64,000 nt of DNA. Origin: Xenophilus aerolatus (GTDB lineage: Bacteria > Pseudomonadota > Gammaproteobacteria > Burkholderiales > Burkholderiaceae_C). Shown here in pieces: positions 5,601-28,797 of this stretch (within the stretch, counting starts at the first letter, position 1; each line of letters begins with the position of its first letter). The DNA lies in the NCBI GenBank assembly GCA_029968055.1, contig JASCNX010000002.1, positions 372,001-436,000 on the forward strand, given 5' to 3'. The notes beneath the pieces are model-generated. The model worked only from the letters and a program-made list of their open reading frames with translations. It ran no database searches and had not been told where the DNA came from. Both the position numbers and the translations under genes were made by a program.

Positions 5601-7585
5601 CCCAGGTCCGCAGCGTTGGCCGCGATCGAGTTGTAGCGGCTGCCGGGGATCTTCGAGTCGTAGGACGGGTTGATGTCGCTTAGCACGGTCATGACCGGGC
5701 GCGCGCACTGCAGGTAACCGCCCCCACCGGCGGCGGCGGAGTACGGCGGCTTCCATTCGGGCTTGGACAGGCCCAGGTCCTTGTCCTTGCTCGAGCCGCT
5801 GCCATAGTCGTACGTGGCGTGCGCGGCGGTCGCGCCGGCGAAGTAGCGCAGTGTCTCGAACATCATCTCGGCCATCGGGTTGCCCCACATGGCGCAGATG
5901 GACGGGTCCGACTTGGCGCTGATCGGGCCGTCGGTGATCCAGCCGCAGTTGTTGTAGGTGGAGCCGTTGAAGCCGATCGCCTTCTGGCCGTCGATGTTGG
6001 CGACGATGCCCTTGCCGTCGGCCGGGGTGATGAACTGCCCGGTCTTGGGATTGACTTCCGACGTGAACTTGCTGACGTTGCGCCGCAGCGTGCCGCCGGC
6101 GATGTTCTTCTGGTACGAGCCCGTGAGCAGGCCGAAGTACATCTTCTCGTTCTCGCCGAAGTCGTGCAGCAGGCCGGTCGGCTTGTAGACGATGGTGCCG
6201 GCGTCGTTCTGATAGGGCTTGCAGGTTTCTTCGCGCAGCGCGGCATCGGTGCCGACGCAGGCCTCGACGCGGATCTTCTTGTCGACGATCGCGCTGGCCG
6301 GCCGGGTGACCTGCATCGCCAGGCCCCAGTTGTCGTCGGCCGTCGCCTCGATATGGCGGAACACGAAGGTCTGCCAGCCGGCCGTGGTGAAGTTGAAGCT
6401 GTTCGAGTGGCTTTCCAGGCTGGACTGGCTGCGGTTGTTGGCGTGCCCGCCGTACCAGCCGACGGTCGTGCTGCCGATGGTGAAGTCGACCGAGTCGTCG
6501 CCGTCGACCGCGAAGCGGTACGTACCGGCAGAAGGGATGTAGACCTTGCCGGTGATCAGCGTGAGGTAGTTCTCATTCGTGCAGCCGTTGCTTCCCGCGA
6601 ACGGGTTGTTGTTGGCACCCGTGGTGTTGATGACGCTCAGCGTTCCCGTGCCGCACGCGGTCGTGCCCGCCACGCCGTCGAAGCGGGCGTTCATGTCGGC
6701 CATGTTGGCAGGCAGGGCGCCGCTCCACTTCCAGGTCTTGATGCTCAGGTCCTGGAAGGCGCTGGCCGGCAGCATCTCGTACTGCGAGCTGGCGCCCTGC
6801 TCGCAGCTGGTGCCGTTGTCGATGCACTTGTCCTGCGCGACCGGCTGCTCTTTGGAGACCCATTCCCAGATCTGGAACTTGGAGTCGTTCAGCACGCGCA
6901 GCAGGGGAATGGCGTTGTCCCCGCTTTCGCCCTTGGTGGTCACGGCGAACAGGTGCCGCGTGTTGTCGACCGGCTTGGCCAGCGGCGCATAGTCCTGGAT
7001 GCGGTAGACCGTGCCGTCGCGCGCGAAGTCGTAGGCCTTGCCCCAGCTGTGGGCATCACGCGGGATGTAGGACCCCTGCAGCACCGTCGACGTGTCGGTG
7101 TCGACGTTGCGCGTGCCGCCATAGAGCACCCGCCGCATCGCGTCCATGCGCGAGGTGGTGAGGTAGTTCAGGAAGTCGCCGCTCCACTTGGTGCCGTCGC
7201 ACTGCTTCTTCCTGCTGCCCGTGGCGGCGGCCACGGGCCGGAACATGTCGTTGTCGTAGGTGTAGCAGGCGTTGTTGTTGAAATAGCCGTAGTAGTCGAT
7301 CTTGTCGGGCTTGTAGCCCACGTCGATCACGCCGTCGCCGTCGAGGTCCGAGGCGTCGTTGTAGGCCTCGTAATACATCTTGTGGTCGCGGCCCATCACC
7401 AGCATGTTCAGCGGCGGGTAGCCCTGGCTCACGAAGAGCGGCGTCTGGGCAAGTGCGCTCTCGGTCGTGCCCTGGGCGCTGGCCAGGTGCTGGCCGGCGA
7501 AGAGCGCGACCACGGCCGTCAGCAGGCCGGCGGCGTGGAACAACCTGAACGTGGGGCGATCGGAGGTCGAGGTTTTCACCATCAT
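2630..7585 (-). CDS. pilY1: Type IV pilus tip adhesin / assembly protein PilY1
   Basis: A 1651-residue secreted protein that sits at the pilus tip with the minor pilins and promotes extension and adhesion. The start is the first of two adjacent ATGs, preceded by GAGGAA; a signal peptide runs to about residue 38 (LASAQ). Residues 80-88 form an EF-hand-like loop [12 protein letters not shown]14-like stretch lies near residues 350-430 ([14 protein letters not shown]), and the C-terminal third is the PilY1 beta-propeller with a second calcium loop DGNGDGKVD near residue 1370. A third, DMNGDG, lies near 1586. I see no N-terminal von Willebrand A domain with DxSxS, unlike the Pseudomonas aeruginosa protein. 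The gene lies 16 bases after pilX. Confidence 0.93.
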
Positions 7586-7601
7586 GCGTTTCCTCGGCGG
7601 G

Positions 7602-8192
7602 CTATTTGATGAACAGGTTGATCGACGAGCGCAGGCAAAGCGCGTCGGGGCCGCAGGCCGGACGGGAATTGCCTGACACCTCCACCCTCGTCGCCTGCGA
7701 GTTGACCTCGTAGAACTCGGTGCAGCCGGTGTTGGCCGATTCAAGCGCCGCGGTGGCGCTGGCGCCCTTGGGGCACTGGGTGGCGATGTAGCGCGGATAC
7801 CAGTAGCCCTTCGGCATGTCGAAGCCCGTCGCCTCGGCGCTGACCGCGAACGTGGTCTTCAGGCCGTTGGTGTCGGCGCGCGCCTCGGAAACGAAGCAGG
7901 GCTTGCCGCCGGTCACGGGCGACTGGGCGCCGCTGGCGCAGGGCTGCAGCGAGATGCCGTAGGCCTGGATCGTCCGCTCGCCCTCGCGCAGGGTGCCGTC
8001 GGCCGTTTCCTGCAGGTTGTGGCTCTGCAGCATGTTGCCGCCGATGCGCGACTCCAGCGTCACCGTGCGCATCCCGGCCACCGCGATCACCAGCAGCAGC
8101 AGCACCATGATCATGGCGACGAAGAGGGCGGCGCCCCCCTGGGTACGCCGGGGCGACATCGTGTGCAGGCGTTGGCTTCCCGAGAAATTCAT
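7602..8192 (-). CDS. pilX: Type IV minor pilin PilX
   Basis: A 196-residue minor pilin. Its N-terminus is the PilX type: a basic leader ending RTQGG, then AALFVAMIMVLLLLVIAVAG without the Glu5 of classical pilins. The rest has paired cysteines (PCASGAQ, PCFVSEA, TQCPKG, TGCTEF, PACGPD, LCLRSS) suited to disulfides in the periplasm. ATG at 8192 overlaps the pilW stop as ATGA, which argues for translational coupling; an internal ATG 11 codons on would give a shorter leader. It belongs to the fimT-pilVWX-pilY1-pilE operon, whose products prime pilus assembly together. Confidence 0.9.
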   Translation of the reverse strand: MNFSGSQRLHTMSPRRTQGGAALFVAMIMVLLLLVIAVAGMRTVTLESRIGGNMLQSHNLQETADGTLREGERTIQAYGISLQPCASGAQSPVTGGKPCFVSEARADTNGLKTTFAVSAEATGFDMPKGYWYPRYIATQCPKGASATAALESANTGCTEFYEVNSQATRVEVSGNSRPACGPDALCLRSSINLFIK

Positions 8193-9046
8193 GGCATCAG
8201 ATTCCGCAACATCAGCGAGCCGCTGGCGACCTGGTACAGCTGGCCCTTGGCGGGGTCGCAATCGGTGTTTGTGGCGGCGCTCAGCTCCTTCCAACGGTTG
8301 CACACGGTCGATTCCATGCCGCCGGTCAGCCCGCCCGCCGTGCTGGAGAACAGCAGGTTGTAGCGAAGCGCCCGCACCACGTTCCCGGCGGCTGGCACCG
8401 CCCTCGTGTAGCTTTCGACCTTGCGCTCGGCCATCGAGTCGTCGTCGACCGGCGCCTTGCCGATGCCGTATTCGAAGACCACACCGCTCACGCGATCGGC
8501 CACCGGCGTGCCCGCCTCGGTGTCCTTGTCCTGGTTGCCCGACAGGCAGACCAGCGATTTCTCGTTGCTGGTCGTGGCGACGAAGTACTTCTCGACGAAC
8601 ATGCCGGCGCCGATGGCGGGTGCCGGCGGCGCCTCGTAGGCCGCCAGGGTGTTGATGCCGGCCGCCGTGCCCGCGCAGTCCTTCTCGTCCTTGTCGCGCG
8701 CCTGGAAGCGGATGCACAGCACGCCCACGCTGGGCACCGTGATGGCCTCGCCGGCGGCGAACTGGCAGCCGTTCTTGTAGGCCGTCGCGGTGGCGGGAAA
8801 TGCGAGCTTCATGTTCTGCGTCGGGTCGCGGCGGTAGCCCGCCTTGGTGAAGGCGGCCTCGATCGTGTCGAGCGCGTAGCGGCTGTTGCCGAGGTTCTCG
8901 CTCTGGCCCGTGCGGAAGCTGAAGTTCGACACGCCCTGCGTGTAGACCGTGGTGGCGATCAGCACGATGACCAGCCCGATGGCCATCGCCACCATGATCT
9001 CCACCAGCGAGATGCCTCGCTGGCCGGATCTGCCGGCGCGGCGCAT
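8189..9046 (-). CDS. pilW: Type IV minor pilin PilW
   Basis: A minor pilin of 285 residues with leader MRRAGRSGQRG cleaved before ISLVEIMVAMAIGLVIVLIA, keeping Glu5 for assembly. The long C-terminal part has scattered cysteines (NGCQF, VLCIRF, KDCAG, LVCLSG, VCNRW, DCDPA). The start at 9046, eight bases after the pilV stop, gives a normal leader. Frame-compatible ATGs at 9091 and 9097 inside pilV would add 15-17 residues. No strong Shine-Dalgarno precedes any choice, so coupling to pilV is likely. Its stop overlaps the pilX start (ATGA). Confidence 0.9.
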   Translation of the reverse strand: MRRAGRSGQRGISLVEIMVAMAIGLVIVLIATTVYTQGVSNFSFRTGQSENLGNSRYALDTIEAAFTKAGYRRDPTQNMKLAFPATATAYKNGCQFAAGEAITVPSVGVLCIRFQARDKDEKDCAGTAAGINTLAAYEAPPAPAIGAGMFVEKYFVATTSNEKSLVCLSGNQDKDTEAGTPVADRVSGVVFEYGIGKAPVDDDSMAERKVESYTRAVPAAGNVVRALRYNLLFSSTAGGLTGGMESTVCNRWKELSAATNTDCDPAKGQLYQVASGSLMLRNLMP

Positions 9047-9053
9047 GCCGCGT

Positions 9054-9593
9054 TCAAAGGCGCGAGCGCAGGGTGTAGGTGCAGTAGTCATCGTCATTGC
9101 CGCTTGCGTTCAGGCATTGGCCCTTCTTGACCGGCCAGGCCACCGTGATGGCGACCACGTTGGTCGTTGCGTCGACCCCGACCGTGAAGGCGCTGGTGAT
9201 GAGCGCATCCGGCAGTTCGGGGATGACCCGCTTGGCACGCGCGCCCCAGCAGCCCAGGCGCTTGCCCGGGTCGCTGCTCAGCGGCATGCAGTCGGCGGTG
9301 GTCACCGTGGGCAGGGCAGCGTCCTTCGCCTTCGTGTAGCCGCCCAGGTCGGTCTTGGGCGCGCCGGTGGCCTGCAGCACGGTGGTGGTGTCGCTGCGCA
9401 TGGTCTCCATCAGCTCCGAGGCCACCATGGCCGCCATCTGGCGGCGCTCGGTGTCCATGGTGTATTCGACGGCGCGCACGTGCATGCCGGCGGCGCCCAG
9501 CAGGCCGATGCTCACCAGCAGGACGGCCACCAGCACCTCGATCAGGCCGAAGCCGCTGACCCGGGAAGACTTGGACATGGAAGGGGCGTGCAT
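9054..9593 (-). CDS. pilV: Type IV minor pilin PilV
   Basis: A minor pilin of about 179 residues. The processing site is in RVSG then FGLIEVLVAVLLVSIGLLGAAG, with Glu5 kept and the typical PilV hydrophobic helix. The start is uncertain: ATG at 9593 (14-residue leader), ATG at 9578 (9-residue leader) and GTG at 9608 are all possible, and none has a clear ribosome site. The gene begins about 22 bases after the fimT stop and ends eight bases before pilW. Function within the priming subcomplex is inferred from operon position and family. Confidence 0.87.
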   Translation of the reverse strand: MHAPSMSKSSRVSGFGLIEVLVAVLLVSIGLLGAAGMHVRAVEYTMDTERRQMAAMVASELMETMRSDTTTVLQATGAPKTDLGGYTKAKDAALPTVTTADCMPLSSDPGKRLGCWGARAKRVIPELPDALITSAFTVGVDATTNVVAITVAWPVKKGQCLNASGNDDDYCTYTLRSRL

Positions 9594-9615
9594 GGCAGTG
9601 AGTGGCACAGCGGGA

Positions 9616-10107
9616 TCAGGAACAGGTTTCGGTGGCCAGCTTGCGGACCTGGCGGACCAGCCCCGCCCCCGTCACGCTGACGCACTGGAGGTTCGACGCC
9701 TTGGCCGCCGAGACCGACACCAGGTAGGGCGCGTTGCCGGCGGCCGGCTTGGCGGCACCGGTGACGTCGAAGCTCACGCCGTTGGCCGAGGCGGGCGTCA
9801 CCGTCACGGCGTCGGGCAGCACCGTCTCGCGCAGTACGCTCGCACCCACCTTGGCCTCCCATTTCTGGCCGGTTGCGGTGACCGTGCTGGGGGTCCGTTG
9901 GTAGACGGCCTCGGCGCGCGCGAACTGGAACAGGGTTTGCAGCTCCTGCGCCGACGAGTTCACCCGCTGGTTCGCGATCAGCGTCGTGAAGGACGGCGCC
10001 GCCAAGGCCGCCAGAATGGCGACCAGCGCAACCACCACCATGGCCTCGATCAGGGTGAAGCCATCCAGCCTCGCCCGCGTTGCGGCCGCCATCGTCCGTG
10101 TTTTCAT
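9616..10107 (-). CDS. fimT: Type IV minor pilin FimT / GspH-like
   Basis: First gene of the minor-pilin operon, 163 residues. Leader MKTRTMAAATRARLDG is followed by FTLIEAMVVVALVAILAALA, a classic class III signal with Glu5. The soluble part resembles the GspH/FimT family (SFTTLIANQRVNSSAQEL, FARAEAVYQRT). ATG at 10107 has GAGG five bases upstream, which decides the start. The two cysteines near the C-terminus (LQCVSV, TETCS) may pair. In some bacteria FimT-like minor pilins bind DNA for uptake; whether this one does cannot be read here. The upstream 188 bases toward the PglL gene are relatively AT-rich and should hold the operon promoter. Confidence 0.9.
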   Translation of the reverse strand: MKTRTMAAATRARLDGFTLIEAMVVVALVAILAALAAPSFTTLIANQRVNSSAQELQTLFQFARAEAVYQRTPSTVTATGQKWEAKVGASVLRETVLPDAVTVTPASANGVSFDVTGAAKPAAGNAPYLVSVSAAKASNLQCVSVTGAGLVRQVRKLATETCS

Positions 10108-10295: not shown

Positions 10296-12014
10296 GTGCG
10301 CCGTTCGTCGGCCTGCCGAGGGATGCCGCTGAGCGGCGCCGCTCGGCAGGCCGGGGCCTGGCAGTCGGTCCGGCGTTCCGCAGCGACACTGCTGGTGGCC
10401 GCGCCATTCCTGTTCCCGCTGACCGGCGGGCCGGTGGGCAGCGCGTGGCAGGCCCTCTGGGGCGCCGGTTGCGCGGTGCTGCTGGCCTCGACCTTGGGCC
10501 GCGGGCGGGCAAGCGTTCGCACCGGTGCGGTGCTGGTGATCGCCGTCATGCTCCTGGTCGCCATCGCGTTCACCGGGCGGCCCGGGGTCGGCCTCGCGGG
10601 CGCATGGCTGGTCGTGGGGTGCGGCTTCCTCGCCGGCCGATGCGGCGGTCCGGAGCACGTCCCAGACGCCGACCGCGCGCTCGCCCTCGGCCGCGGCCTC
10701 ACAGTGGCGGCGTGCCTGAGCGTTGCGATTGCCCTGGCCCAGTATTTCGGGCATGCGGCGTGGCTGAGTCCCTGGGGCGCCGTTCCGATGGAACCGCTGG
10801 GCATGGCCTATGGCAACCTGCGGCAGCGCAACCAGTTCGCCTCCCTGTGCTGCATGGGGCTGGTGGCCGTGCTCTGGCTGCAGGCCCGCGCGAGCGCTGC
10901 GGGCGGCGCCCGGCTGCCGTGGGCCGGGGCCGCCGCCTGGCTGGTCGTGGGACTGGCTGCTTCGACGTCGCGCACCGGGCTGCTCGCGTTGGTCTGCATC
11001 GTGGGTGCGGCGGCGTGGTTGGGCAGGCGGCAGCGCCGATCGCCGGGCCGCGGCGGGCCGCAGCTGCCGCGGCCGTCGTTCATGCTGGCCCTGCTGCCGC
11101 TGTATGGCGCCGCCGCGTGGCTGCTGCCTCGCCTGGCCAGTGGCGGCGTCGACGGCATGATCTCGCGCCTGCGCGAGGGCGCGCCGCCGGGCCACAGCCG
11201 GCTCGTGCTCTGGCGCAATGTGCTCGAGCTGATCGCCGAGCATCCCTGGCGCGGCTGGGGCTGGGGAGAGCTGCGCTATGCGCACTACAGCCACCTGTAC
11301 GGCGGCGAGCGCTTCGTCGAAATCCTCGACAACGCGCACAACCTGCCGCTGCACCTGGCGGTCGAGCTGGGCGTCCCGGCGGCGCTCGCCCTCTGCGGCG
11401 CGTGGCTGTGGATGGTCGTGCGCGCGCGGCCCTGGGCCGAACGCGATCCGGCTCGGGTCATGGGATGGGGCCTGCTGGGCGTGATCGCGCTGCACAGCCT
11501 GCTCGAGTACCCGCTCTGGTACGCGCCCTTCCAGCTGGTCTTCGGCTTCTGCGTGGGTGTGGTGTGGCCCGGCCGGCCGGTTGCCCCCAGCCCGGATCGG
11601 CCGCTGGCGCCCGTCCTGCCCGCGCTGGCAGCGACGATGTCGATGGCATGCCTGGCGCTCGTCGCCTGGGACTACACCCGCGTGAGCCAGCTCTACCTGC
11701 CGCGCGACGAGCGTCTGGCGGCCTGGCGGGAGCACACGCTCGACCGCTTGCGGGGCCGCTCGTGGTTCTTCGACGATGCCGTGAAGTTTGCCGACCTCAC
11801 GCTCACCCCCGTCACGCCCGAGCGCGCGCCGGCGATCGATGCACTGGCCGGCGAGATGCTGCACTTCTCGCCCGAGCCCCGCGTGGTGGTCAAGCGCATC
11901 CAGGCGGCATCGGCGCTGGGCCGCGACGACGAGGTGCAGGCGCAGCTGGTGCGCTTTCGCGCGGCGTACCCGGAAGACTACCTGCGCTGGCTGGGCAGCC
12001 TGCCGGCCGACTGA
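10296..12014 (+). CDS. pglL: PglL-type O-oligosaccharyltransferase (Wzy_C / O-antigen ligase superfamily)
   Basis: An integral membrane enzyme predicted to move lipid-linked glycans onto protein Ser/Thr in the periplasm. The 572-residue protein has about ten or more hydrophobic segments, then the Wzy_C core: GNLRQRNQFAS, SRTGLLALVC, LWRNVLELIAEHPWRGWGWG, and the periplasmic-loop histidine motif DNAHNLPLHLAVELG. These fit the PglL branch better than WaaL. The soluble C-terminal tail (about residues 445-572) also fits PglL. The start is GTG at 10296; ATG at 10323 is an alternative. It is divergent from the minor-pilin operon, making pilins the obvious candidate substrates. A role as O-antigen ligase or polymerase cannot be fully excluded. 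Confidence 0.8.
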   Translation: MRRSSACRGMPLSGAARQAGAWQSVRRSAATLLVAAPFLFPLTGGPVGSAWQALWGAGCAVLLASTLGRGRASVRTGAVLVIAVMLLVAIAFTGRPGVGLAGAWLVVGCGFLAGRCGGPEHVPDADRALALGRGLTVAACLSVAIALAQYFGHAAWLSPWGAVPMEPLGMAYGNLRQRNQFASLCCMGLVAVLWLQARASAAGGARLPWAGAAAWLVVGLAASTSRTGLLALVCIVGAAAWLGRRQRRSPGRGGPQLPRPSFMLALLPLYGAAAWLLPRLASGGVDGMISRLREGAPPGHSRLVLWRNVLELIAEHPWRGWGWGELRYAHYSHLYGGERFVEILDNAHNLPLHLAVELGVPAALALCGAWLWMVVRARPWAERDPARVMGWGLLGVIALHSLLEYPLWYAPFQLVFGFCVGVVWPGRPVAPSPDRPLAPVLPALAATMSMACLALVAWDYTRVSQLYLPRDERLAAWREHTLDRLRGRSWFFDDAVKFADLTLTPVTPERAPAIDALAGEMLHFSPEPRVVVKRIQAASALGRDDEVQAQLVRFRAAYPEDYLRWLGSLPAD

Positions 12015-12026
12015 AAACCGCTGCCG

Positions 12027-12515
12027 CTATCGGCGCGCCACCCAACTGCCCGACTTCCCCCCGTGCTTCTCCACCACGTGCACCCCGGTGATCGTCATGC
12101 CGCGGTCGGCCGCCTTGCACATGTCGTAGACGGTCAGCAGGGCCACCTGCACCGCGGTCAGCGCCTCCATCTCGACGCCGGTCGGGCCGACGGTTTCGAC
12201 GGTGGCGGTGCAGCGCACCTGCGGCACGGGCGTGCCAACGGTCTCGAAGACCACGGCCACGCGGGTCAGGGCCAGGGGGTGGCACAGCGGGATCAGGTCG
12301 CTGGTCTTCTTGGCGGCCTGGATGCCGGCGATGCGGGCCACGCCCAGCACGTCGCCCTTCTTCGCGCTGCCCGACTCGATGAGCGCCAGCGTCTCGGCCC
12401 GCATCTCGATGGTGCCGGTGGCGATGGCCACGCGGTGCGTGGCCGGCTTGGCAGCCACGTCCACCATGTGGGCCTGGCCCTGGGCGTCGAAGTGGGTGAG
12501 CGCAGAAGTCGGCAT
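12027..12515 (-). CDS. moaC: Cyclic pyranopterin monophosphate synthase MoaC
   Basis: Second step of molybdenum cofactor synthesis: turns the MoaA product into cyclic pyranopterin monophosphate. The 162-residue protein matches MoaC along its whole length, including [29 protein letters not shown] and the active-site segment [11 protein letters not shown] with its Asp and Lys. ATG at 12515 gives the usual family length; longer readings upstream have no family match. It converges on the PglL gene with only 12 bases between stops and is divergent from the M48 protease. Other moa genes are not in the window, but two molybdoenzyme genes (52.3 and 61.6 kb) would use the cofactor. Confidence 0.97.
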
Positions 12516-12576
12516 GGGTGAACGAAGCGGGCGGGAGCGCATCATACGGGCCCGGACGTTCGACAAGGACCGCTGC

Positions 12577-14166
12577 TTGACCCACCGCCCGCCTTCCCAC
12601 CGCCCTCGAACCACCCCGCCGAACCGGCCTGCACTGCCCGCCTGGCGGGCGCTGACTGCGATTGCCCTGATGGCGTCGCAGCTGCTGGCCGTGCCGGCGG
12701 CGCGCGCCCAGATCCTGCCGGGCATGAGCGACGGCGCCGAGATGACCGCCACCGCCGAGCGCCAGCTCGGCGACCGCATCGCCCGCGAGCTGTACCGCGA
12801 CCCGGACTATGTCGACGACCCGGTGATCGTCGACTACGTGCAGGACATCTGGCAGCGCCTGCTGGCAGCCGCCCGCACGCGCGGCGAGCTCACGCCCGAG
12901 CTCGACGAGCGCTACGCCTGGACCGTGTTGCTCGGCCACGACCGCACGATCAACGCCTTCGCGCTGCCCGGCGGCTACCTTGGCCTGAACATGGGGCTGA
13001 TCGCCGTGGTCGGCAGCCGCGACGAGCTGGCCGCCGTTCTGGGCCACGAGCTGTCGCACGTCACCCAGCGCCACATCTCGCGCATGCTCACCCAGCAGAG
13101 CCGGCAGGCGCCATGGCTGATCGCGGCCATGATCCTCGGCGCGGTCGCGGCGTCGAAGAGCCGCAGCGGCGGCGACCTGGGCGCCGCCATGATGACCGGC
13201 GGCTCGGCCTTCGCGCAGCAGAAGCAGCTCGACTTCTCGCGCGACATGGAACGCGAGGCCGACCGCATCGGCTACGGCGTCATGACGCAGGCCGGCTTCT
13301 CGCCGCGCGGCGCGGCCAGCATGTTCGAGAAGCTGCAGTACGCCTCGCGCCTGAACGACAACGGCGCCTACCCCTACCTGCGCAGCCACCCGCTGACCAG
13401 CGAGCGCATCACCGAGATGCAGGCGCGCTTCCAGTTCCGCGCCGACGCGGTGGCCCCCCTGCCGCTGGCGATGGACCATGCGATGGTCAGCGCCCGCGCC
13501 CGCGTGCTCACGCGCCCTGGCGTCGACGTGCTGCGCCAATGGGTCGCGGCGGCCGACAGCAGTGAATTCGCCAAGAGCTCGCCGGCCGAGCAGGCCGGCA
13601 CGCTCTATGCCGCGGCCTACGGCGCGTCGGAGCTGCGCGACGTGCGTGCCGCCCGCGCCCTGGCCGAGCGGCTGGTGGTGCGCACCCGCGGCGACGCGGC
13701 CGCGTCCCGGCTGGCGCGGCTGCTCTCGGCCGAGGTCGAACTGGCGGCCCGCAACGGCGCGGCGGCGGCGGCGCTGCTCGATGCCAAGGCCAAGGACCGC
13801 GCCGAGATGATGATGGCGGCGCAGGCCGCCATCGCAACCCACAACCCGGGCCCGATGACCGCACCGCTGCGCGACTGGGTGGCCACGCACCCGCGCGACA
13901 ACGGCGCCTGGCGCACCCTGTCGGCGCTTTACACCGAGCAGGGCGACACCCTGCGCGCCATCCGCGCCGATGCCGAGGCGAATGTCGCCATCCTCGACTA
14001 CATCGCGGCGCGCGACCGCTTCCGGGCGGCGCAGGACCTGGTCCGCGCCAACGCCGATGGCCGGGGGCCGCTGCGGATCGACCACTACGAGGCGTCGATC
14101 ATCGACACCCGCGCGCGCGAGGTGGACGTCAAGGCGCGCGAGCAGATGAACGAGAAGCCGCTCTGA
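12577..14166 (+). CDS. M48 family metalloprotease with TPR region (BepA-like)
   Basis: Probable periplasmic zinc protease for outer-membrane protein quality control. With TTG at 12577 (AAGGAC seven bases upstream) the protein has 529 residues and a signal peptide ending at AARAQ. The HELSH zinc motif is at residues 157-161, with the third ligand in the [10 protein letters not shown] segment. A C-terminal helical repeat region (residues ~300-520, [29 protein letters not shown]) resembles the BepA TPRs. ATG at 12514 would add 21 residues without a ribosome site. Family assignment is firm; identity with BepA itself is inferred from the architecture. Confidence 0.88.
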
Positions 14167-14370
14167 GCGGGGAGTGGGCGCTCGCCTGCGTCTCGGTGAC
14201 GGCGTTCGTGCCATATCTCACGCGCACCGCGGTCGGCGCGCGACTGCAAAACTAGAACTTAGGCACTAACATCGGTCCAGTCGCGTGGATCGAGAGCGGC
14301 CGCGGATTCGCCATCCGTTCTCGAGCACGTCCGGGGAGGGGCCCCATCCGCTGGCCCCGCATCTTCTTAT

Positions 14371-17300
14371 TTGACTGTGCCACCTTCCGCCGTCGTGCCT
14401 GGGCCGGACTCGACCACCGCCCGCCCTGCCGCCACCCTGGTCGAACTGTTCCATGCGCGCTGCGCCGAGGGCGGCGCCGCGCCGGCCGTCAGCTGGGTGG
14501 CGGACGACCTGTCGATCACCGAGCAGCTCAGCTTCGAGGACCTGCACCGGCAGTCGCTCACGCTGGCGCAGCGCCTGGCGGCGTTCGGGCGGCCCGGTGA
14601 CCGCGTGCTGCTCGCGCTGCGCCCGGGCCTGGATTTCGTGCGGGCCTTCTGGGCCTGCATGCTGGCCGGCCGGGTGGCGGTGCCGGTGCCAGCACTCGAC
14701 GCCGCGCGCCTGCAGCGCGGACTGCCGAGGCTGCAGGGCATCGCCCGGGATGCGGCGGCCGCGCTGGGCCTGTGCGATGCCGCGGCGTTTCCGGCCATGC
14801 AGGACGGCTTCGGCGCTGGCGGCATGCCCTGGCACGCACCGCAGGCGCTCGCGGGCGACGCGCGCACCGCCGCACTGCCCGCGGTGGAGGCGGGTGCGCT
14901 GGCCTACCTCCAGTACACCTCCGGCTCCACCGCCGAGCCGCGCGGCGCGTGCCTCACCCATGCCCAGGTGCTGGCCAACCTCGAGATGCTGGGCGCCGGC
15001 TTCGGCATCTCGCGCGGCACCCGCGTCCTGAACTGGCTGCCGCACTTCCACGACTACGGCCTGGTGTCGGGCATCCTGCTGCCGCTCGCCCATGGCGCGC
15101 CCACCTGGCTGATGTCGCCCCTGACCTTCCTGCGCCGGCCCTTGCGCTGGCTGGATGCCATCGACGCCTTCGCCATCACCCTCACAGGCGGACCGGACTC
15201 GGCCTATGCCGCCTGCCTGCGGCATCAGGCCGACGCGGGGTGGTCGGGCCGGCTGGACAGCCTGGTCTCGCTCACCTGCGGTGCCGAACCGATCCGCGCC
15301 AGCACGGCCGAGCGCCTGCTGCAGGCCTTCGGCGCCTCGGGCCTGCGCCCCGGCGCCTTCGCGCCGGCCTATGGCCTGGCCGAGTCGGTGCTCGGCGTGT
15401 CCGCCAGCCCGCTCGGGGCGCCGGCGCGTTCGCTGCGGCTCGACGGCGCGGCCCTTCACCGGCACGAGGTCGTGCCCGCTCCGGCGTCGGCCGCTGCGGC
15501 CGACGTGCGTTCCATCGTGAGCTGCGGCCCGGCCCTGCGCGGGGTGACGCTGCGCATCGTCGAGCCGGACACCGGCGTTGCCTGCCCGCCCGGCCGGGTG
15601 GGCGAGATCTGGGTGCGCTCGGCGGCCGTCGGCGCGGGTTACTGGGGCCGCCCCGCCGAGAGCGCCGCCACCTTCCAGGCGCGCGGCGCCGACGGGGCCG
15701 GGCCCTTCCTGCGCACGGGCGACCTCGGCTTCGTGGACGGCGGCGAACTCTTCGTCACCGGGCGCCTGAAGGACCTGCTCATCGTCCACGGCCAGAACCT
15801 GTACCCGCAGGACATCGAATGGACGGCCGAGCAGGCTCACCCGCAGCTGCGCACCGGCGGCTATGCCTGCGCCTTCGCGGTGGACGCACCGGAAGGCGAC
15901 GCGGCGGTCGTGCTGGTGGAAGCGCGCGGGCGGCCCTCCTCGAGCGAGGAGCAACTGGCCATCCTGCGTGCCGTGCGCCGCGCCGTGGCGCAGACGCACG
16001 AGCTGCCCGTGCATGCCGTGGCGCTGATGCGTGGCGGTGCGCTGCCGCGCACGTCCAGCGGCAAGATCCAGCGCCGGCGCTGCCGGCAGGCCTGGCTCGA
16101 CGGCACGCTGGCGCCGCTGGCCGTGCTGCACGACGAGGCCGGAGAGGGAGCTGAGGACGGCGCGCCCGCGGACGCCATCGAGCACGCCCTCTGGCAGCTC
16201 TGGGCCGAGGTGCTGGGCCGCGACGGCTTCGACACCCACACCCATTTCATCGAACTCGGCGGCACCTCGCTGCTGCTCACGCAGGTGGCCTCGCGCATCC
16301 AGCACCGCTGGGGCGTGCAGCTGCCCTGGGAGGTGCTGCTCGACGAGCCGACGGTCGCCCGGCTGGCGCAGCAGCTGCGTCAGCGCCTGCCCGAGGCGGC
16401 GCCCGATGCCGTCGCGCCACCCGCGGCCTCCCGCGCGGCGCCGTTGCCGGCGTCCCTCTCGCAGCGGCGCATGTGGCTGGTCCAGCAGTTCGACCCGCAC
16501 AGCGTGGCCTACAACGTGGCCCTGTCGCTGCGCCTGCGCGGCCCGCTCGCCCCGGCGCGCCTGGTGGGCGCGCTGGAGTTGCTGGTGCAGCGGCACGAAT
16601 CGCTGCGCACGCGGCTCACGCTGCAGCAGGGGCAGGTGATGCAGGTGGTCGAGCCGTCCGCCGCGCTGCCCTTCGAGCGCATCGACCTGGGCGGCACGCC
16701 GCCGGGCGAGCGCGAGGCGGCCGCGCGCGCACTGCTGAGCGAGCGCGCCGCGACCCCCTTCGACCTGCGGCAGGCGCCGCTGCACCGGGCGACGCTGGTG
16801 CGCCTGGCCGACGACGACCATGTCTTCCTGTGGTCGCAGCACCATGCCATCACCGACAACTGGTCGATGACGGTGCTGGTGCGCGAGCTGCTCCTGTGCG
16901 AGGCGGCCTGGGCCGCCGGCCGGTCGCCGCAGTTGCCGCCCCTGCCCGTGCAGTACGCCGACCACGCCGTGCACCAGCATGCGCCGGCGCAGGTCGAGCG
17001 ACGCGCGGCGCAACGCAGTCATTGGGTGGCGCGCCTGGCCGGGCTGCAGCCGCTGATGCTGCCCACCGACTTCGCGCGGCCGGTGCGCCCGGGTTTCCGC
17101 GGCAGCAAGGTCTCGGCGCCGCTGACGCCGGCGCTGCGGGCGGCCGTCCAGGCCGCTGCGGTGCGGGCGCAGGCCACGCCCTTCGTGGTGTTGCTCGCCG
17201 CCTTCCAGCTGCTGCTGTCGCGCCAGTCCGGGGTGGTCGACGTGGCGGTCGGCGTGCCGGTCGCCAACCGCCATGCACTCGCTGCGGAGTCGCTGGTCGG

Positions 17301-19575
17301 CACGCTGGTCAACACGCTGGTGCTGCGCACCGACCTGTCGGACGACCCGGCGGTGGGCGAACTGCTGCAGCGGGTGCGCCGCACCGCGCTCGACGCCTTC
17401 GCCCACCAGGACATGCCCTTCGACGAGCTGGTCGAGGCCCTGGGCCAGGACCGCGCCCGCCAACCCAACGGCCTGGTGCGCGTGCTCTTCAACGTGGTCA
17501 ACGCACCGTTGGGCCCGCTGCCGGCCGTGCCTTGGCGCTACGAGGAATTCGAACTGGACCGCACGGCCGCGCAATTCGATCTCTCGCTGCACGTGGACAC
17601 CGAGTTCGGTCACCGCATCCACATCGAATACGCCACCGAGCTGTTCCTGCCCGCCACCGCGCAGCGGCTGCTCGACAACTACCTGACCCTGCTGCACGGG
17701 CTGCTGCAGGCCGGCGAATCGCTGCCGATCTCGGCCCTCGACGGCGTCTCGTCCGCGGAGCAGGCGCTGGTGGCGGGCTGGCAGGGCAGGGACCTCCCCT
17801 TGCCGGCGCGGCCGCTGGTGCACCACCATCTGGACATCGGTGCCCGGGCGCGGCGCGACGAGGTCGCCTTGGTCGACGCGCACGGCCGGCAGCTGCGCTT
17901 CGGCGAACTGGAGGCGCAGTCCAACGCCCTGGCGCGGCTGCTGCGCCGCCACGGCATCGCGCGCGGCCAGCGCGTGGGGCTCTGCGGCCCGCGCGACGTG
18001 CACATGGTCGTCGCCATGCTCGGGGTGCTCAAGGCCGGCGCGGCCTACGTGCCGCTCGACCCGGCCTTTCCCGCCGAGCGCCTCGCCCACATGGTGGCCG
18101 ACGCGCAGCCCGCGGCGCTGGTGAGCGCAGGCGCCAGCGCCGCTGCGCCCGACTGGGCGCCCGGCGTGCCGCTGATCGACATCGCATCGCCCGCTTTCCT
18201 CGCCCTGGGCGACACGGCGCCGTTGCCGATCGACCCTGCACTCGACGCCGGCCCCGAGGACGCGGCCTACCTCATCTACACCTCCGGCTCCACCGGCCGG
18301 CCCAAGGGGGTGGCGGTGCCGCATCGCGCGGTGGTCAATTTTCTCGCCGGCATGGCGCACACGCCGGGCCTGCAGGCCGGCGACCGGCTGCTGGCCGTGA
18401 CCACGCTGTCCTTCGACATCGCCGTGCTGGAGCTGCTGCTGCCGCTGGCCGTGGGGGCGCAGGCGGTCATCGCCAGCCGCGAGCAGGTCCAGGACCCGCG
18501 GCAGCTCGCCCGCCTGCTCGAGCGCCACGAGATCACGGTCATGCAGGCCACGCCCTCGGCCTGGCGCGCACTGCTGGACAGCGGCTGGACCGGCGGCCCG
18601 GCCTTCCGCGCGCTGGTCGGCGGCGAGCCGCTGCCGGCAACGCTGGCCGAGCGCCTGCTGGCCTGCTGCGGCGCACTGTGGAACATGTACGGCCCGACCG
18701 AGACCACGGTGTGGTCCACCTGCTGGCGGGTCCGCGATGCCCGTGCAGGCATCTCCATCGGCCGCCCCATCGCCAACACGCAGGTGCACGTGCTCGATGC
18801 GCAGGGCCGGCCCTGCCCCGTCGGCGTGCCGGGCGAGGCCTTCATCGGCGGTGCGGGCGTGGCGCTGGGCTACCACGGTCGCGACGCGCTGACCGCCGAG
18901 CGCTTCGTGCCCGACCCCTTCGGTGGCCTGCCGGGCGCGCGCCTGTACCGCACGGGCGACCGCTGCCGCTGGCGCCACGACGGCCAGCTGGAGCACCTCG
19001 GGCGCATGGACCACCAGGTGAAGGTGCGCGGCTTTCGCATCGAGCTGGGCGAGATCGAGTCGGTGCTGCAGGAGCATGCTGCCGTGGCGCAGTGCGTGGT
19101 CGTCACGCGCAGCGAGCGCGACGATGACGTGCGCCTCGTGGCCTATGCGGTGCTGCGCGGCGGCTCGCCGGCCGATGCCGCCGCGCTGCGCGAGCATCTG
19201 CGGCTGCGGCTGCCGGAGTACATGGTCCCGCAGCACATCGTGTCCCTGCCCGCACTGCCGCTGCTGCCCAACGGCAAGATCGACCGTGGGTCGCTGCCGG
19301 CCCCTTCGCCCGCGCCTGCCGAAGGCGGCGGACGCACGAGGGCGGCGCCGGCCACCGAGGACGAGGCCGCCGTCGCCGCCATCTGGCGCGAGCTGCTGGG
19401 GGTGGACGACGTGCGCCCGGGCGACAACTTCTTCGACCTGGGCGGCCATTCGCTGCTGGCCATGCGCGCGGTGCTGGCCATGGAGGAGCGCCTGGGCTGG
19501 CGCGTGGCACCGCGGCGCCTGGTCTTCGAGACGATGCGCCAGATCGCGCGGCCGGAAAGCACCCAGCCGGCCTGA
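14371..19575 (+). CDS. FAAL-PCP-C-A-PCP lipopeptide-type nonribosomal peptide synthetase
   Basis: A 1734-residue synthetase that should acylate one amino acid. Domains in order: fatty acyl-AMP ligase (about 20-585; QYTSGSTAEPRGACLTHAQ, LPHFHDYGLVSG, MSPLTFLRRPLRW); carrier with Ser633 (LGGTSLLL); condensation domain (690-1130) with HHAITDN at 824-830; adenylation domain (1155-1640; IYTSGSTGRPKGVA, YGPTETT, GRMDHQVKVRG, NGKIDR); carrier with Ser1694 (GGHSLL). No thioesterase, reductase or terminal condensation domain follows. Read against the phenylalanine-activating domain, the second pocket gives D-I-L-Q-L-G-M-V-W-K, close to glycine-type codes I remember. The start is TTG (or GTG at 14377) with no good ribosome site. 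No MbtH or phosphopantetheinyl transferase gene is near. Product and release step are unknown. Confidence 0.93.
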   Translation: MTVPPSAVVPGPDSTTARPAATLVELFHARCAEGGAAPAVSWVADDLSITEQLSFEDLHRQSLTLAQRLAAFGRPGDRVLLALRPGLDFVRAFWACMLAGRVAVPVPALDAARLQRGLPRLQGIARDAAAALGLCDAAAFPAMQDGFGAGGMPWHAPQALAGDARTAALPAVEAGALAYLQYTSGSTAEPRGACLTHAQVLANLEMLGAGFGISRGTRVLNWLPHFHDYGLVSGILLPLAHGAPTWLMSPLTFLRRPLRWLDAIDAFAITLTGGPDSAYAACLRHQADAGWSGRLDSLVSLTCGAEPIRASTAERLLQAFGASGLRPGAFAPAYGLAESVLGVSASPLGAPARSLRLDGAALHRHEVVPAPASAAAADVRSIVSCGPALRGVTLRIVEPDTGVACPPGRVGEIWVRSAAVGAGYWGRPAESAATFQARGADGAGPFLRTGDLGFVDGGELFVTGRLKDLLIVHGQNLYPQDIEWTAEQAHPQLRTGGYACAFAVDAPEGDAAVVLVEARGRPSSSEEQLAILRAVRRAVAQTHELPVHAVALMRGGALPRTSSGKIQRRRCRQAWLDGTLAPLAVLHDEAGEGAEDGAPADAIEHALWQLWAEVLGRDGFDTHTHFIELGGTSLLLTQVASRIQHRWGVQLPWEVLLDEPTVARLAQQLRQRLPEAAPDAVAPPAASRAAPLPASLSQRRMWLVQQFDPHSVAYNVALSLRLRGPLAPARLVGALELLVQRHESLRTRLTLQQGQVMQVVEPSAALPFERIDLGGTPPGEREAAARALLSERAATPFDLRQAPLHRATLVRLADDDHVFLWSQHHAITDNWSMTVLVRELLLCEAAWAAGRSPQLPPLPVQYADHAVHQHAPAQVERRAAQRSHWVARLAGLQPLMLPTDFARPVRPGFRGSKVSAPLTPALRAAVQAAAVRAQATPFVVLLAAFQLLLSRQSGVVDVAVGVPVANRHALAAESLVGTLVNTLVLRTDLSDDPAVGELLQRVRRTALDAFAHQDMPFDELVEALGQDRARQPNGLVRVLFNVVNAPLGPLPAVPWRYEEFELDRTAAQFDLSLHVDTEFGHRIHIEYATELFLPATAQRLLDNYLTLLHGLLQAGESLPISALDGVSSAEQALVAGWQGRDLPLPARPLVHHHLDIGARARRDEVALVDAHGRQLRFGELEAQSNALARLLRRHGIARGQRVGLCGPRDVHMVVAMLGVLKAGAAYVPLDPAFPAERLAHMVADAQPAALVSAGASAAAPDWAPGVPLIDIASPAFLALGDTAPLPIDPALDAGPEDAAYLIYTSGSTGRPKGVAVPHRAVVNFLAGMAHTPGLQAGDRLLAVTTLSFDIAVLELLLPLAVGAQAVIASREQVQDPRQLARLLERHEITVMQATPSAWRALLDSGWTGGPAFRALVGGEPLPATLAERLLACCGALWNMYGPTETTVWSTCWRVRDARAGISIGRPIANTQVHVLDAQGRPCPVGVPGEAFIGGAGVALGYHGRDALTAERFVPDPFGGLPGARLYRTGDRCRWRHDGQLEHLGRMDHQVKVRGFRIELGEIESVLQEHAAVAQCVVVTRSERDDDVRLVAYAVLRGGSPADAAALREHLRLRLPEYMVPQHIVSLPALPLLPNGKIDRGSLPAPSPAPAEGGGRTRAAPATEDEAAVAAIWRELLGVDDVRPGDNFFDLGGHSLLAMRAVLAMEERLGWRVAPRRLVFETMRQIARPESTQPA

Positions 19576-19588
19576 GCGCCGTACGGCG

Positions 19589-19942
19589 TCAGCGGCGGGC
19601 GAACAGGCCGCCCAGCGCCGACTCGATCACCACGCCGAGCAGCGAGTAGAGCAGCGAGCCGATCAGCGCCGCCAGGAAGCCGTTGACGTGAAAGCCGCTC
19701 AGGAGGCCCGAGGCGGCCCAGAAGAGCAGCGCGTTGATGATGAAGAGGAAAAGGCCCAGCGTGACGATGGTGACGGGCAGCGTGAGTACCACCAGCACCG
19801 GCCGCACCACCATGTTGAGCAGGCCGATCACCGCCGCGGCGATCAGCGCGTGGGCGAAGGTGGTCACCTGCACGCCGCTGTAGAGGTACGACACCGCCAG
19901 CAGGGCCAGCGCGCTCAGGAGCCATTTGAGGATCAGTCGCAT
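19589..19942 (-). CDS. Phage holin family / YvlD-like four-helix membrane protein
   Basis: A 117-residue integral membrane protein with four hydrophobic helices, matching the PF04020 family (named for weak holin similarity; YvlD in Bacillus). Recognisable stretches include GLLNMVVRPVLVVLTLPVT and FLFIINALLFWAASG. The start at the ATG in the first helix gives a normal family length. It converges on the synthetase gene with about 13 bases between stops. The family has no settled function; there is no lysis or phage context here, so a holin role is not implied. Confidence 0.85.
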   Translation of the reverse strand: MRLILKWLLSALALLAVSYLYSGVQVTTFAHALIAAAVIGLLNMVVRPVLVVLTLPVTIVTLGLFLFIINALLFWAASGLLSGFHVNGFLAALIGSLLYSLLGVVIESALGGLFARR

Positions 19943-26927: not shown

Positions 26928-27478
26928 CAGCGCTTGATGAAGGTGAGCGTGACCTCGCCCACCTCGACGCCGAACTTGCTCATGCGTGCGCGGTTGAGCA
27001 TCACGCGCTCGTTCATCAAATACATCCAGTCGTCCATCTGCACGTCGAAGGTGCGCTCGCCCACCGGCTGGCGCAGCGTGTAGTTCCACTGGAAGACATT
27101 GCCGCGCTGCTGGCCCTGCGCCGTGCCGACCACGTCGGGCGCGGTGCCGCTGAAGCGGCCGTCGGGCAGGGCGCGCAGCGTCCACACGCGGCGCTGCGTG
27201 CTGCCGTCGCTGTAGGTGAAGCGTTCGTCGAGCACGCCCTCGTCGCCGCTCCAGCGGCAGTCCATCACCACGTCGAAGCGCTTGACCACCTTGCCGGCGC
27301 GGTCCTGGAACATGCCGTGGGCCTCGATGCGGCCATTGAAGTAGTCGCGCAGCGAGAGCACCGGCTTCTCGTTGGCATAGTCGGCCGGCGTGGGGCTGGC
27401 GCAGCCGGCCAGCACGGCGACGGTGCCGATGGCGAAGGCCAGGCCGAGCAGGCGGCGGCGGGAGGGCGATGGGGTCAT
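26927..27478 (-). CDS. DUF3833 lipoprotein
   Basis: A 183-residue protein with a lipoprotein signal (VAVLAGCASP; lipid-carrying Cys near residue 26) and a DUF3833 domain: LRDYFNGRIEAHGMFQDRAG, RFDVVMDCRWSGDEGVLDE, and WMYLMNERVMLNRARMSKFG. The beta-rich repeats look like a lipocalin-like barrel. The start overlaps the MFS stop (ATGA) and the stop overlaps the SDR start (TGATG), so it is locked in the operon. DUF3833 proteins accompany Cfa/DUF1365 clusters in many proteobacteria; their biochemical role is not known to me. Confidence 0.88.
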   Translation of the reverse strand: MTPSPSRRRLLGLAFAIGTVAVLAGCASPTPADYANEKPVLSLRDYFNGRIEAHGMFQDRAGKVVKRFDVVMDCRWSGDEGVLDERFTYSDGSTQRRVWTLRALPDGRFSGTAPDVVGTAQGQQRGNVFQWNYTLRQPVGERTFDVQMDDWMYLMNERVMLNRARMSKFGVEVGEVTLTFIKR

Positions 27479-28797
27479 GGCGGATCGGCGAGGGGTGACG
27501 AGGACGAGGCCGCGCGCGGCCGGATCACCAGCGCCCACAAGGCGCCGGCGGCGAGAAGCTTGAGCAGGCAGGGCAGCACCGCGTACGCCCAGCCGAGCGC
27601 GCGCAGGCCCTCGGCGCCGCGCGTGCCAGGCACGTAGCCGGCGGCGCCGAGCAGCGGCAGCGCCAGCCCGGCGGCCAGGGCCAGGTTGAGCTTGGTGGCG
27701 AAGTTCCACCAGCCGAAGTACGCGCCGGCACGCGGCTGGTCGGCCGCCTCGGCGATCTGGCCGGCCAGCAGGGCGCCCGGCAGCACGAGGTCGGTGCCCA
27801 GGGCGATGCCCGACAGAACGCACACCACGAGGAACGCCATGGCGTCGCCGGCACCGAGCGCCGCCGTCCATGCGAACACCGCCACCGACAGCCCCATGCC
27901 GACCAGCCAGGTGCGCGCCAGCCCGAAGCGGGGAGCAACGCGAAGCCACAGCGGGATCGAGGCCGCGGCGCAGACGAAGTAGCTGCCCAGGAAGGCCGGC
28001 TCCATCGCCGGTGGCGCCTGCAGCCGGTCCTGCACGAAGAAGAGCACCAGCGTGGCCGGCACGGCGCTGGCGATGCCGTTGAGCACGAAGACGCCCAGCA
28101 GGCGGCGAAAGGCCGGACGCCGCAGGGGCATCCACAGCAGCGCTGCGCCGGCGGCGGCCGGGCTCGCCGTCGCCGGCGCGGGGCGCGGCGCGCGCGACCA
28201 GGCCAGCCAGCCGGCGACCAAGGCCAGCACGAAGAAGCCCACCATCGCCGGCAACCCCGCCAGGCCCGGCAGCACCGAGGCCAGCACCACGCCGACCAGG
28301 CCCAGGCCCTCGCGCCAGCCGACCACGCGGCTGCGCATCGCGGCGTCGCCGCCCAGCAGCGCGCCCCAGGACTGGTGTGCCACCGAGAGCAGGCTGTAGC
28401 CTAGGTAGCACAGCGCCAGCAGCGCACCCGCCACGCCGAGCAGCATGCCGGTGCGCGCCGGATCGACCAGCATCTGCGGAAAGAACAGCCCCCCGAAGCC
28501 GGCCGCCAACAGCGCCGCGGCCACCGCACCGGCGCCCAGCACGGCCTGCGGCGAGCGGCGGAACAGCCCGTCGCACAGGCGCCCCAGCAGCGGGTCGACG
28601 AGCGCATCGAGAAGGCGCGCGCCCAGCAGCACCGCACCCAGCGCGGCCAGCGGCACGCCGTAAGTCGCGGCGTAGTGGTGCGGCAGCTGCACATACAGCG
28701 GCAGCGCGACGAAGGCCAGCGGCAGGCCGAGCAGCCCATAGCGCAGGCCCGCGGACGTGCCGAATGCGCGTGCTGGCGATGGCGGCTCGGGTGGCAT
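27475..28797 (-). CDS. MFS transporter (MFS_2/GPH-like)
   Basis: A 440-residue membrane protein with about twelve hydrophobic helices. The N-half carries ARLLDALVDPLLGRLCDG, a variant of the glycoside-pentoside-hexuronide/MFS_2 signature, as in sodium-sugar and lipid (MFSD2-like) carriers. It starts two bases after the stop of the chalcone-isomerase-like gene and overlaps the DUF3833 start (ATGA). Because all neighbours act on lipids, a lipid or fatty-acid related cargo is more likely than a sugar, but this is inference. Confidence 0.85.
   Translation of the reverse strand: MPPEPPSPARAFGTSAGLRYGLLGLPLAFVALPLYVQLPHHYAATYGVPLAALGAVLLGARLLDALVDPLLGRLCDGLFRRSPQAVLGAGAVAAALLAAGFGGLFFPQMLVDPARTGMLLGVAGALLALCYLGYSLLSVAHQSWGALLGGDAAMRSRVVGWREGLGLVGVVLASVLPGLAGLPAMVGFFVLALVAGWLAWSRAPRPAPATASPAAAGAALLWMPLRRPAFRRLLGVFVLNGIASAVPATLVLFFVQDRLQAPPAMEPAFLGSYFVCAAASIPLWLRVAPRFGLARTWLVGMGLSVAVFAWTAALGAGDAMAFLVVCVLSGIALGTDLVLPGALLAGQIAEAADQPRAGAYFGWWNFATKLNLALAAGLALPLLGAAGYVPGTRGAEGLRALGWAYAVLPCLLKLLAAGALWALVIRPRAASSSSPLADPP

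Follow-up and report, generated by a model that had tools for sequence, protein, structure and literature searches.

The gene at positions 14371-19575 of the window (the whole stretch of 64,000 nucleotides that was analysed) is, to judge from its sequence, a real one-gene lipo-amino-acid enzyme belonging to a clade of synthetases that end without a thioesterase (TE); more interesting than the synthetase itself, however, is a pair of alpha/beta hydrolases, hyd1 and hyd2, that is tied to TE-less, glycine-terminated NRPSs and is encoded in the same genome on another contig, C7. The features concerned are collected in Table 1. In the scheme proposed here, the FAAL domain would convert a fatty acid to an acyl-AMP and load it onto the first carrier domain (PCP1), the adenylation (A) domain, which its code predicts to activate glycine, would load the second (PCP2), and the condensation (C) domain would join the two to give N-acylglycyl-S-PCP2; both carrier domains would be armed by the Sfp-like PPTase of C7, and the chain would be released in trans by hyd1, with its Cys, Asp and His, together with the nucleophile-less hyd2, the product being either free N-acylglycine or an acylglycyl group passed to some nucleophile other than water. 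That the enzyme is an acyl-glycine synthetase armed and emptied in this way is quite possible, though we would stop somewhat short of calling it probable; trans release by the pair would vary a known NRPS theme and, though unproven, is the best explanation.

Table 1 Features of the synthetase locus in the window, and of the PPTase and hydrolase genes on contig C7 of the same genome.
Feature	Coordinates	Strand	Basis or remark
M48 / BepA-like peptidase, upstream core neighbour, also where synthetase absent	12322..14166	+	start uncertain
TE-less FAAL-PCP-C-A-PCP synthetase, 1734 aa	14371..19575	+	ORF reading, Pfam, local profiles
First (FAAL-like) domain region	14431..16113	+	Pfam, NCBIfam, local profiles, solved-sequence search
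First carrier domain (PCP1), motif FIELGGTSLLLTQ	16177..16377	+	Pfam, motif alignment, local profiles
Condensation domain, residues 693-1132, active-site motif HHAITDNWS	16447..17766	+	Pfam, alignment, tree
Adenylation domain, residues 1157-1645, code DILQVGMVWK (glycine-like), LPNGKIDR intact	17839..19305	+	
Second, terminal carrier domain (PCP2), motif NFFDLGGHSLLAM, 6 residues before stop	19360..19554	+	
117-aa membrane protein (Pfam Phage_holin_4_2), downstream core neighbour, marks empty site	19589..19942	-	
Sfp-like PPTase (C7)	L136:814-1530		PPTase models, best HetI, under their cut-offs
hyd2, alpha/beta hydrolase without nucleophile (C7)	L136:1527-2339		
hyd1, alpha/beta hydrolase with conserved Cys nucleophile (C7)	L136:2382-3308		

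The forward-strand frame from 14371 to 19575 is uninterrupted by stops in the ORF translation, with either TTG 14371 or GTG 14395 as start codon. Pfam places in its product two AMP-binding stretches, one Condensation domain, two PP-binding domains, an AMP-binding_C domain and a DIP2-like AMP domain (residues 468-581), and local profiles set the boundaries at residues 51-580 (FAAL), 603-669 (PCP), 693-1117 (C), 1157-1645 (A) and 1664-1728 (PCP), so that the order FAAL-PCP-C-A-PCP given in the original prediction is borne out by both. The same is true of its claim that a release domain is absent: a terminal TE or reductase overlooked by eye was searched for, and neither Pfam nor the local profiles found any thioesterase or reductase family in the synthetase, only 6 aa remaining on the C-terminal side of the PCP2 profile edge. 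Given this absence of a C-terminal TE or reductase, the protein is not one of the TE-terminated lipo-amino-acid synthetases; it does contain a C-A-PCP module, as recognised in the alignment from HHAITDNWS, LPNGKIDR and the carrier motifs LGGTS and LGGHS. Truncation of the assembly was considered as the cause of the missing TE and is excluded because the orthologues in five other genomes terminate at the same place (the same end in six genomes in all). A 1727-aa antisense frame (14266-19449, minus strand) was likewise rejected as a gene, the gene caller favouring the plus strand, and is probably a high-GC shadow frame.

The hallmarks of FAALs are a FAAL-specific insertion and a lack of activity with CoA; the alignment to solved sequences covers the region where this insertion would lie. 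When the FAAL-type half of the protein was compared with the sequences of solved structures, 15 matched at E<=1e-50 (best E 3e-104), among them FadD23, FadD32, FadD28 and chains named 'Fatty Acyl-Adenylate Ligase'; the best match is a domain named 'Polyketide synthase', and the tellingly named matches are all FAALs, which places the domain in that class by similarity to solved FAALs. Among NCBIfam models, too, those for fatty-acid--AMP ligases score above those for CoA ligases on the first domain. The top NCBIfam model for the protein, PRK05691 (score 1253 bits; cut-off 4090), represents multimodular NRPSs initiated by a FAAL, of which PvdL is an example, and its FAAL-PCP-C-A-PCP start aligns over residues 21-1708; however, these enzymes run on through more modules, whereas the window synthetase stops after one.

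The ten-residue code of the A domain, DILQVGMVWK, fits DILQxGxxWK in the alignment, and the domain is on this basis predicted to activate glycine; the bound product should therefore be N-acylglycyl-S-PCP. In published work, DILQVGLIWK is predicted to specify glycine in Paenibacillus larvae and is identical to the code of DhbF1 of Bacillus subtilis (PMC4169593), DILQLGMIWK is found in glycine domains (PMC12283262), DILQVGWV is consistent with glycine (PMC10888640), and DILQLGVI is a predicted glycine code in NcmD of nocamycin biosynthesis (PMC5466765).

A quick IQ-TREE run on 45 C-A-PCP segments (SH-aLRT support only, midpoint rooting) puts the window synthetase in a clade of 11 rows (SH-aLRT 100), all of which end 20-26 aa past the same alignment point. 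Eight of these have a FAAL, one (L033) is cut before the FAAL, and in two (L129 and L029) a C-A-PCP replaces the FAAL-PCP; because the whole supported clade ends alike, the absence of a TE is an ancient state that the lineage has retained. A further full-length copy lacking a TE, with about 55% identity and the code DPLQIGIVWK, is encoded in the own genome (G000) at G000:C1:1331334-1336430, where it sits between thiolase and ClpB-type genes. Outside the clade, four cousins (L026, L027 from Hydrogenophaga palleronii, L028 and L061) have the architecture FAAL-PCP-C-A-PCP-TE; they resemble the window synthetase in domain order and in their code, DILQVGM[VI]WK, and L027 resembles it further in that its fetched flanks carry no other NRPS genes, but they differ in having the C-terminal TE and in reading HHxxxDQ where the TE-less window protein has HHxxxDN. 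We know of no characterisation of these TE-bearing one-gene cousins. In several Nitrospira MAGs (loci L031, L032, L036, L037 and L040) the synthetases read FAAL-PCP-C-A-PCP-C-A(Gly-type)-PCP-TE.

The existence of TE-bearing cousins does allow the thought that the window gene is a decaying, nonfunctional remnant that has lost its TE, and the gene is indeed missing from 9 of 15 genomes of the genus, but this is scarcely credible. Motifs are intact across five genomes (six rows) and stops are absent in six; over the full gene, dN/dS against two orthologues is 0.24 (0.0836/0.352) and 0.22 (0.0955/0.444), and the FAAL, C and A domains each lie near 0.2. A value of about 0.6 for PCP2 against L024 would favour decay, though it covers 69 codons with little change, and against L022 the same domain gives 0.18. 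A pseudogene is accordingly rejected on the overall dN/dS of about 0.2, and the TE-less end common to the clade and the second TE-less copy in the own genome also argue against decay.

Within the genus an orthologue is present in 6 of 15 genomes, the five others being 84-85% identical over residues 1-1734. The genes for the M48 peptidase and the Phage_holin_4_2 protein flank the synthetase in all six, and in eight of the nine genomes that lack it the same two genes are adjacent, leaving an empty site (in the ninth, L118, the site is interrupted by a contig end). Since eight of nine synthetase-negative genomes show this empty site, the adjacent genes are core neighbours and are ruled out as functional partners. 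The site is also occupied in Variovorax boronicumulans Xaverov (L035, 58%), and a Variovorax MAG (L033, partial) has a matching downstream side; other sites are used in Variovorax sp. J22R24 (L023) and a gammaproteobacterial MAG (L025). When the called genes (<=1500 aa) in the flanks of four TE-less FAAL sites (the window, L019, L023 and L025) were compared, none was common to at least three, and two were common to two sites, namely a protein of 213-225 aa (41% identity; L019:5243-5920 and L023:22517-23158, a few kb from the synthetases) and a pilin-like gene shared by L019 and the window. The synthetase is thus a unit of a single gene, which a genome either has or lacks at a fixed slot, and its neighbours tell little of its function. 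More widely, 6 of 120 sampled genomes of the family, the own genome included, contain a match at E<=1e-300. The window itself also includes a type IV pilus block (2630-10092, minus strand), in which PilY1 (1651 aa) and pilin-like proteins are encoded, and adjoining it a PglL/Wzy-type ligase gene (10395-12014, plus strand).

These results bear on the original prediction in several ways. Its view that local partner genes are absent stands, the flanking genes being core neighbours, and the called genes of the window (some family-scanned, the rest judged by eye) include no recognisable PPTase, TE or further NRPS. The possibility it allowed that orthologues always lie in a larger known cluster, such as one for a described lipopeptide, is answered in the negative, as they share a site flanked by core genes, and further NRPS, tailoring or transport genes were not recognised beside the synthetase. 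In describing the enzyme as solitary it was right for the locus and wrong for the genome, given the TE-less paralogue on C1. The statement that one gene encodes everything needed goes too far, as a PPTase is not encoded in the synthetase, and the statement that no transporter gene lies near overlooked an MFS_2 gene about 8 kb downstream (27475-28797, minus strand), although in a separate gene block. Its remark that no characterised counterpart was recognised holds in so far as no description of the FAAL-PCP-C-A-PCP layout, or of the hydrolase pair, was recognised in the open-access literature, but uncharacterised relatives of the same layout with a TE do exist. Of its suggested routes of release, that by a stand-alone enzyme has gained a concrete candidate in hyd1/hyd2.

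An alternative is that no dedicated partner is required, N-acylglycine being freed by slow attack of water or by general thioesterases or hydrolases. The finding that genes in the fetched flanks are common to at most two of the four TE-less FAAL sites would be in keeping with this, and a PF00975 search of the own genome gave seven matching places, five of them scoring above the cut-off; by coordinates, however, none of the seven lies within 30 kb of a listed NRPS place. We regard this explanation as rather unlikely, the points that weigh against it being that the TE-less end has been kept over deep divergence and that a specific pair of genes stands directly behind related TE-less enzymes.

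This pair was counted in a set of 118 closed NRPS ORFs from 88 loci, 72 of them PCP-ended (tail <130 aa), 23 TE-ended and 23 ending otherwise; the count took ORFs with >1200 nt downstream or with a match, and a last code of DILQ, DITQ or DPLQ was classed as glycine-type. Among PCP-ended ORFs whose last A code is glycine-type, 15 of 51 (two of the 51 codes being DPLQ) have hyd2 at 0-94 nt behind them and then hyd1, as against 0/20 for PCP-ended ORFs with other codes and 0/21 for TE-ended ORFs (0/17 glycine-type, 0/4 other). Because the loci were chosen for their likeness to the window protein, a choice that tilts the set towards glycine-type modules, these proportions differ from those of NRPSs at large; several of the rows are also congeneric. 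Fourteen of the 15 pair-bearing ORFs have codes starting DILQ and one has DITQVGVVWK; they span several phyla and come from Hydrogenophaga, Aquabacterium and Marinobacter (two ORFs each), from four species of Corallococcus, and singly from Pseudoxanthomonas, a Rhodopila MAG, a Myxococcales MAG, Desulfoluna and a Calditrichia MAG. The remaining 36 of the 51, including all the solitary FAAL ones, have no pair within 3.5 kb, which weighs against the proposed role of the pair. Among the loci inspected, L131 and L132 (G019:C1) are adjacent NRPS genes, both with TE-less glycine-type C-A-PCP ends, with an AMP-binding enzyme gene downstream and no tailoring gene recognised nearby by eye, and XrtA/PEP-CTERM exopolysaccharide genes lie about 11 kb from the end of the synthetase of Hydrogenophaga sp. 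2FB (L134:20-5905).

A PF01648 profile search of the own genome found two PPTase places, one on C4 (AcpS-like by eye) and the Sfp-like one on C7, where the order is PPTase, hyd2, hyd1 (L136:814-3308). Upstream of these lie genes for an A-PCP-KS-AT-PCP-aminotransferase protein and then a C-A-PCP-C-PCP protein, likewise TE-less (L020:6911-19308), and this counts against trans service to the window gene, in that the pair adjoins another NRPS/PKS cluster, which is possibly its sole client. At the nucleophile elbow Cys is found in 25/25 hyd1 rows, and Arg (24) or Gly (2) in 26 hyd2 rows; in 11 hyd1 proteins Cys117, Asp140 and His262 (first-row numbering) are invariant. The hyd1 model has a predicted alpha/beta-hydrolase fold in which Asp140 comes right after strand 133-139, and the position after that strand serves for the catalytic acid in thioesterases. 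A fold search with hyd1 returned a general alpha/beta-hydrolase result, with lipases and esterases first and the thioesterase DcsB in the first 25, and searching solved structures with the hyd1 and hyd2 sequences likewise gave a general alpha/beta-hydrolase answer. The nearest named relatives are the XrtA-associated hydrolases 1 and 2 (TIGR03100 / TIGR03101), which are also paired; however, the best scores among 14 proteins scanned were 60-101 bits against cut-offs of 168.45 and 202.75, so that hyd1 and hyd2 fall outside these families, and their partners here are mostly NRPS genes, unlike those of the XrtA-associated hydrolases. Scores below the cut-offs of named families, and fold matches of hyd1 that are mostly lipases and esterases, also weigh against the proposed role of the pair.

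Release by a discrete enzyme has precedents. PMC10956176 describes TrdC, NcmC and BpdE as stand-alone Cys-Asp-His enzymes by which terminal modules lacking a TE are discharged, and further discrete product-releasing hydrolases are covered by the review PMC4147253. The layout seen for TrdC and NcmC, with a dedicated Cys hydrolase adjoining the synthetase, recurs in the 15 related NRPS ORFs; for the window gene, the candidate pair is on another contig. According to PMC5466765 and PMC10956176, the synthetases NcmD and TrdD of nocamycin and tirandamycin combine, as here, a C-A-PCP with a glycine code and a free-standing enzyme of Cys hydrolase type (NcmC, TrdC), a likeness which might be taken to mean that the window system also releases its product by closing a ring, in the manner in which these Cys cyclases act on beta-keto-acyl-amino acids, to give a small heterocycle. 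The NcmD and TrdD systems are, however, polyketide-fed and clustered, make a tetramic acid and have no FAAL, unlike the window synthetase. We know of no pseudo-hydrolase partner in them. Ring closure is very improbable for the window enzyme: what FAALs load are fatty acids, none of the nearby genes was recognised as one for making a beta-keto chain, and the top 50 fold matches of hyd1, which is not assigned to the TrdC family, include no NcmC-titled entry.

The distribution of hyd2 also bears on trans release by the pair. It was present in 15 of 24 genomes searched, and within the genus in 6/6 genomes with the synthetase as against 1/9 without it (G005), for which Fisher's test gives p = 0.0014 if kinship is ignored, although the independent events are few because the six positive genomes are close kin. 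Outside the genus, a TE-less FAAL synthetase accompanies hyd2 in G149 (58%), G150 (61%) and G156 (55%). G005, with the pair and no synthetase, speaks against the proposed role, as does its converse G155, a 3.4 Mb MAG with a TE-less synthetase in which the hyd2 search gave no match. In the family sample of 120 genomes hyd2 was found in nine, including five of the six with a strong synthetase match (Fisher p = 4e-6, on the assumption that the synthetase and hyd2 surveys drew the same genomes); this co-occurrence may reflect a general tendency of NRPS-rich genomes to carry more NRPS helpers. In the sixth, hyd2-negative genome (G082) the code is DVWNIGLIHK and a PF00975 thioesterase gene adjoins the synthetase. 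In G079 the genes PPTase-hyd2-hyd1 are followed by glycosyltransferase-like genes; the fetched flanks contain no NRPS, and the contig also bears L129, a glycine-type NRPS without a TE, at a distance of 1.7 Mb, which is how a trans service would be expected to look.

A broader proposal, to be taken as tentative and on balance doubtful, is that hyd1 and its nucleophile-less sister hyd2 form a split release enzyme that empties TE-less, glycine-terminated NRPSs in many unrelated bacteria, its genes often standing directly behind the synthetase, and that, in Comamonadaceae, acts together with the PPTase as a genome-wide service for distant solitary synthetases. If such a shared service exists, a single gene could carry a whole lipo-amino-acid pathway into a fixed slot. 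Trans release by the pair, if right, would explain how NRPS genes with an unfinished look can work, would make hyd2-hyd1 a marker for finding the product class, and would predict N-acylglycine lipids in Comamonadaceae of the Variovorax type. With synthetase and helpers far apart or on different contigs, the link would escape genome mining that relies on clusters.

Lastly, the acylglycyl group might be transferred rather than hydrolysed, the acceptor being on the membrane or surface, an exopolysaccharide, or the A-less C-PCP end of the C7 line; a Cys nucleophile would be compatible with this, and the C7 cluster does terminate in C-A-PCP-C-PCP. Hydrolase pairs also occur in polysaccharide loci, at L134 near the XrtA/PEP-CTERM genes and at L160 and L161 before glycosyltransferase-like genes. 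No acceptor or transferase linked to the window gene was found, however, and because the window protein ends 6 aa past the PCP profile there is little room for a docking region, so that transfer seems distinctly unlikely. Elsewhere in the own genome, on C4, L021:5069-9145 encodes a 1358-aa A-domain protein with a hexapeptide-repeat part, adjoined by two LpxL-like acyltransferase genes (named by eye).
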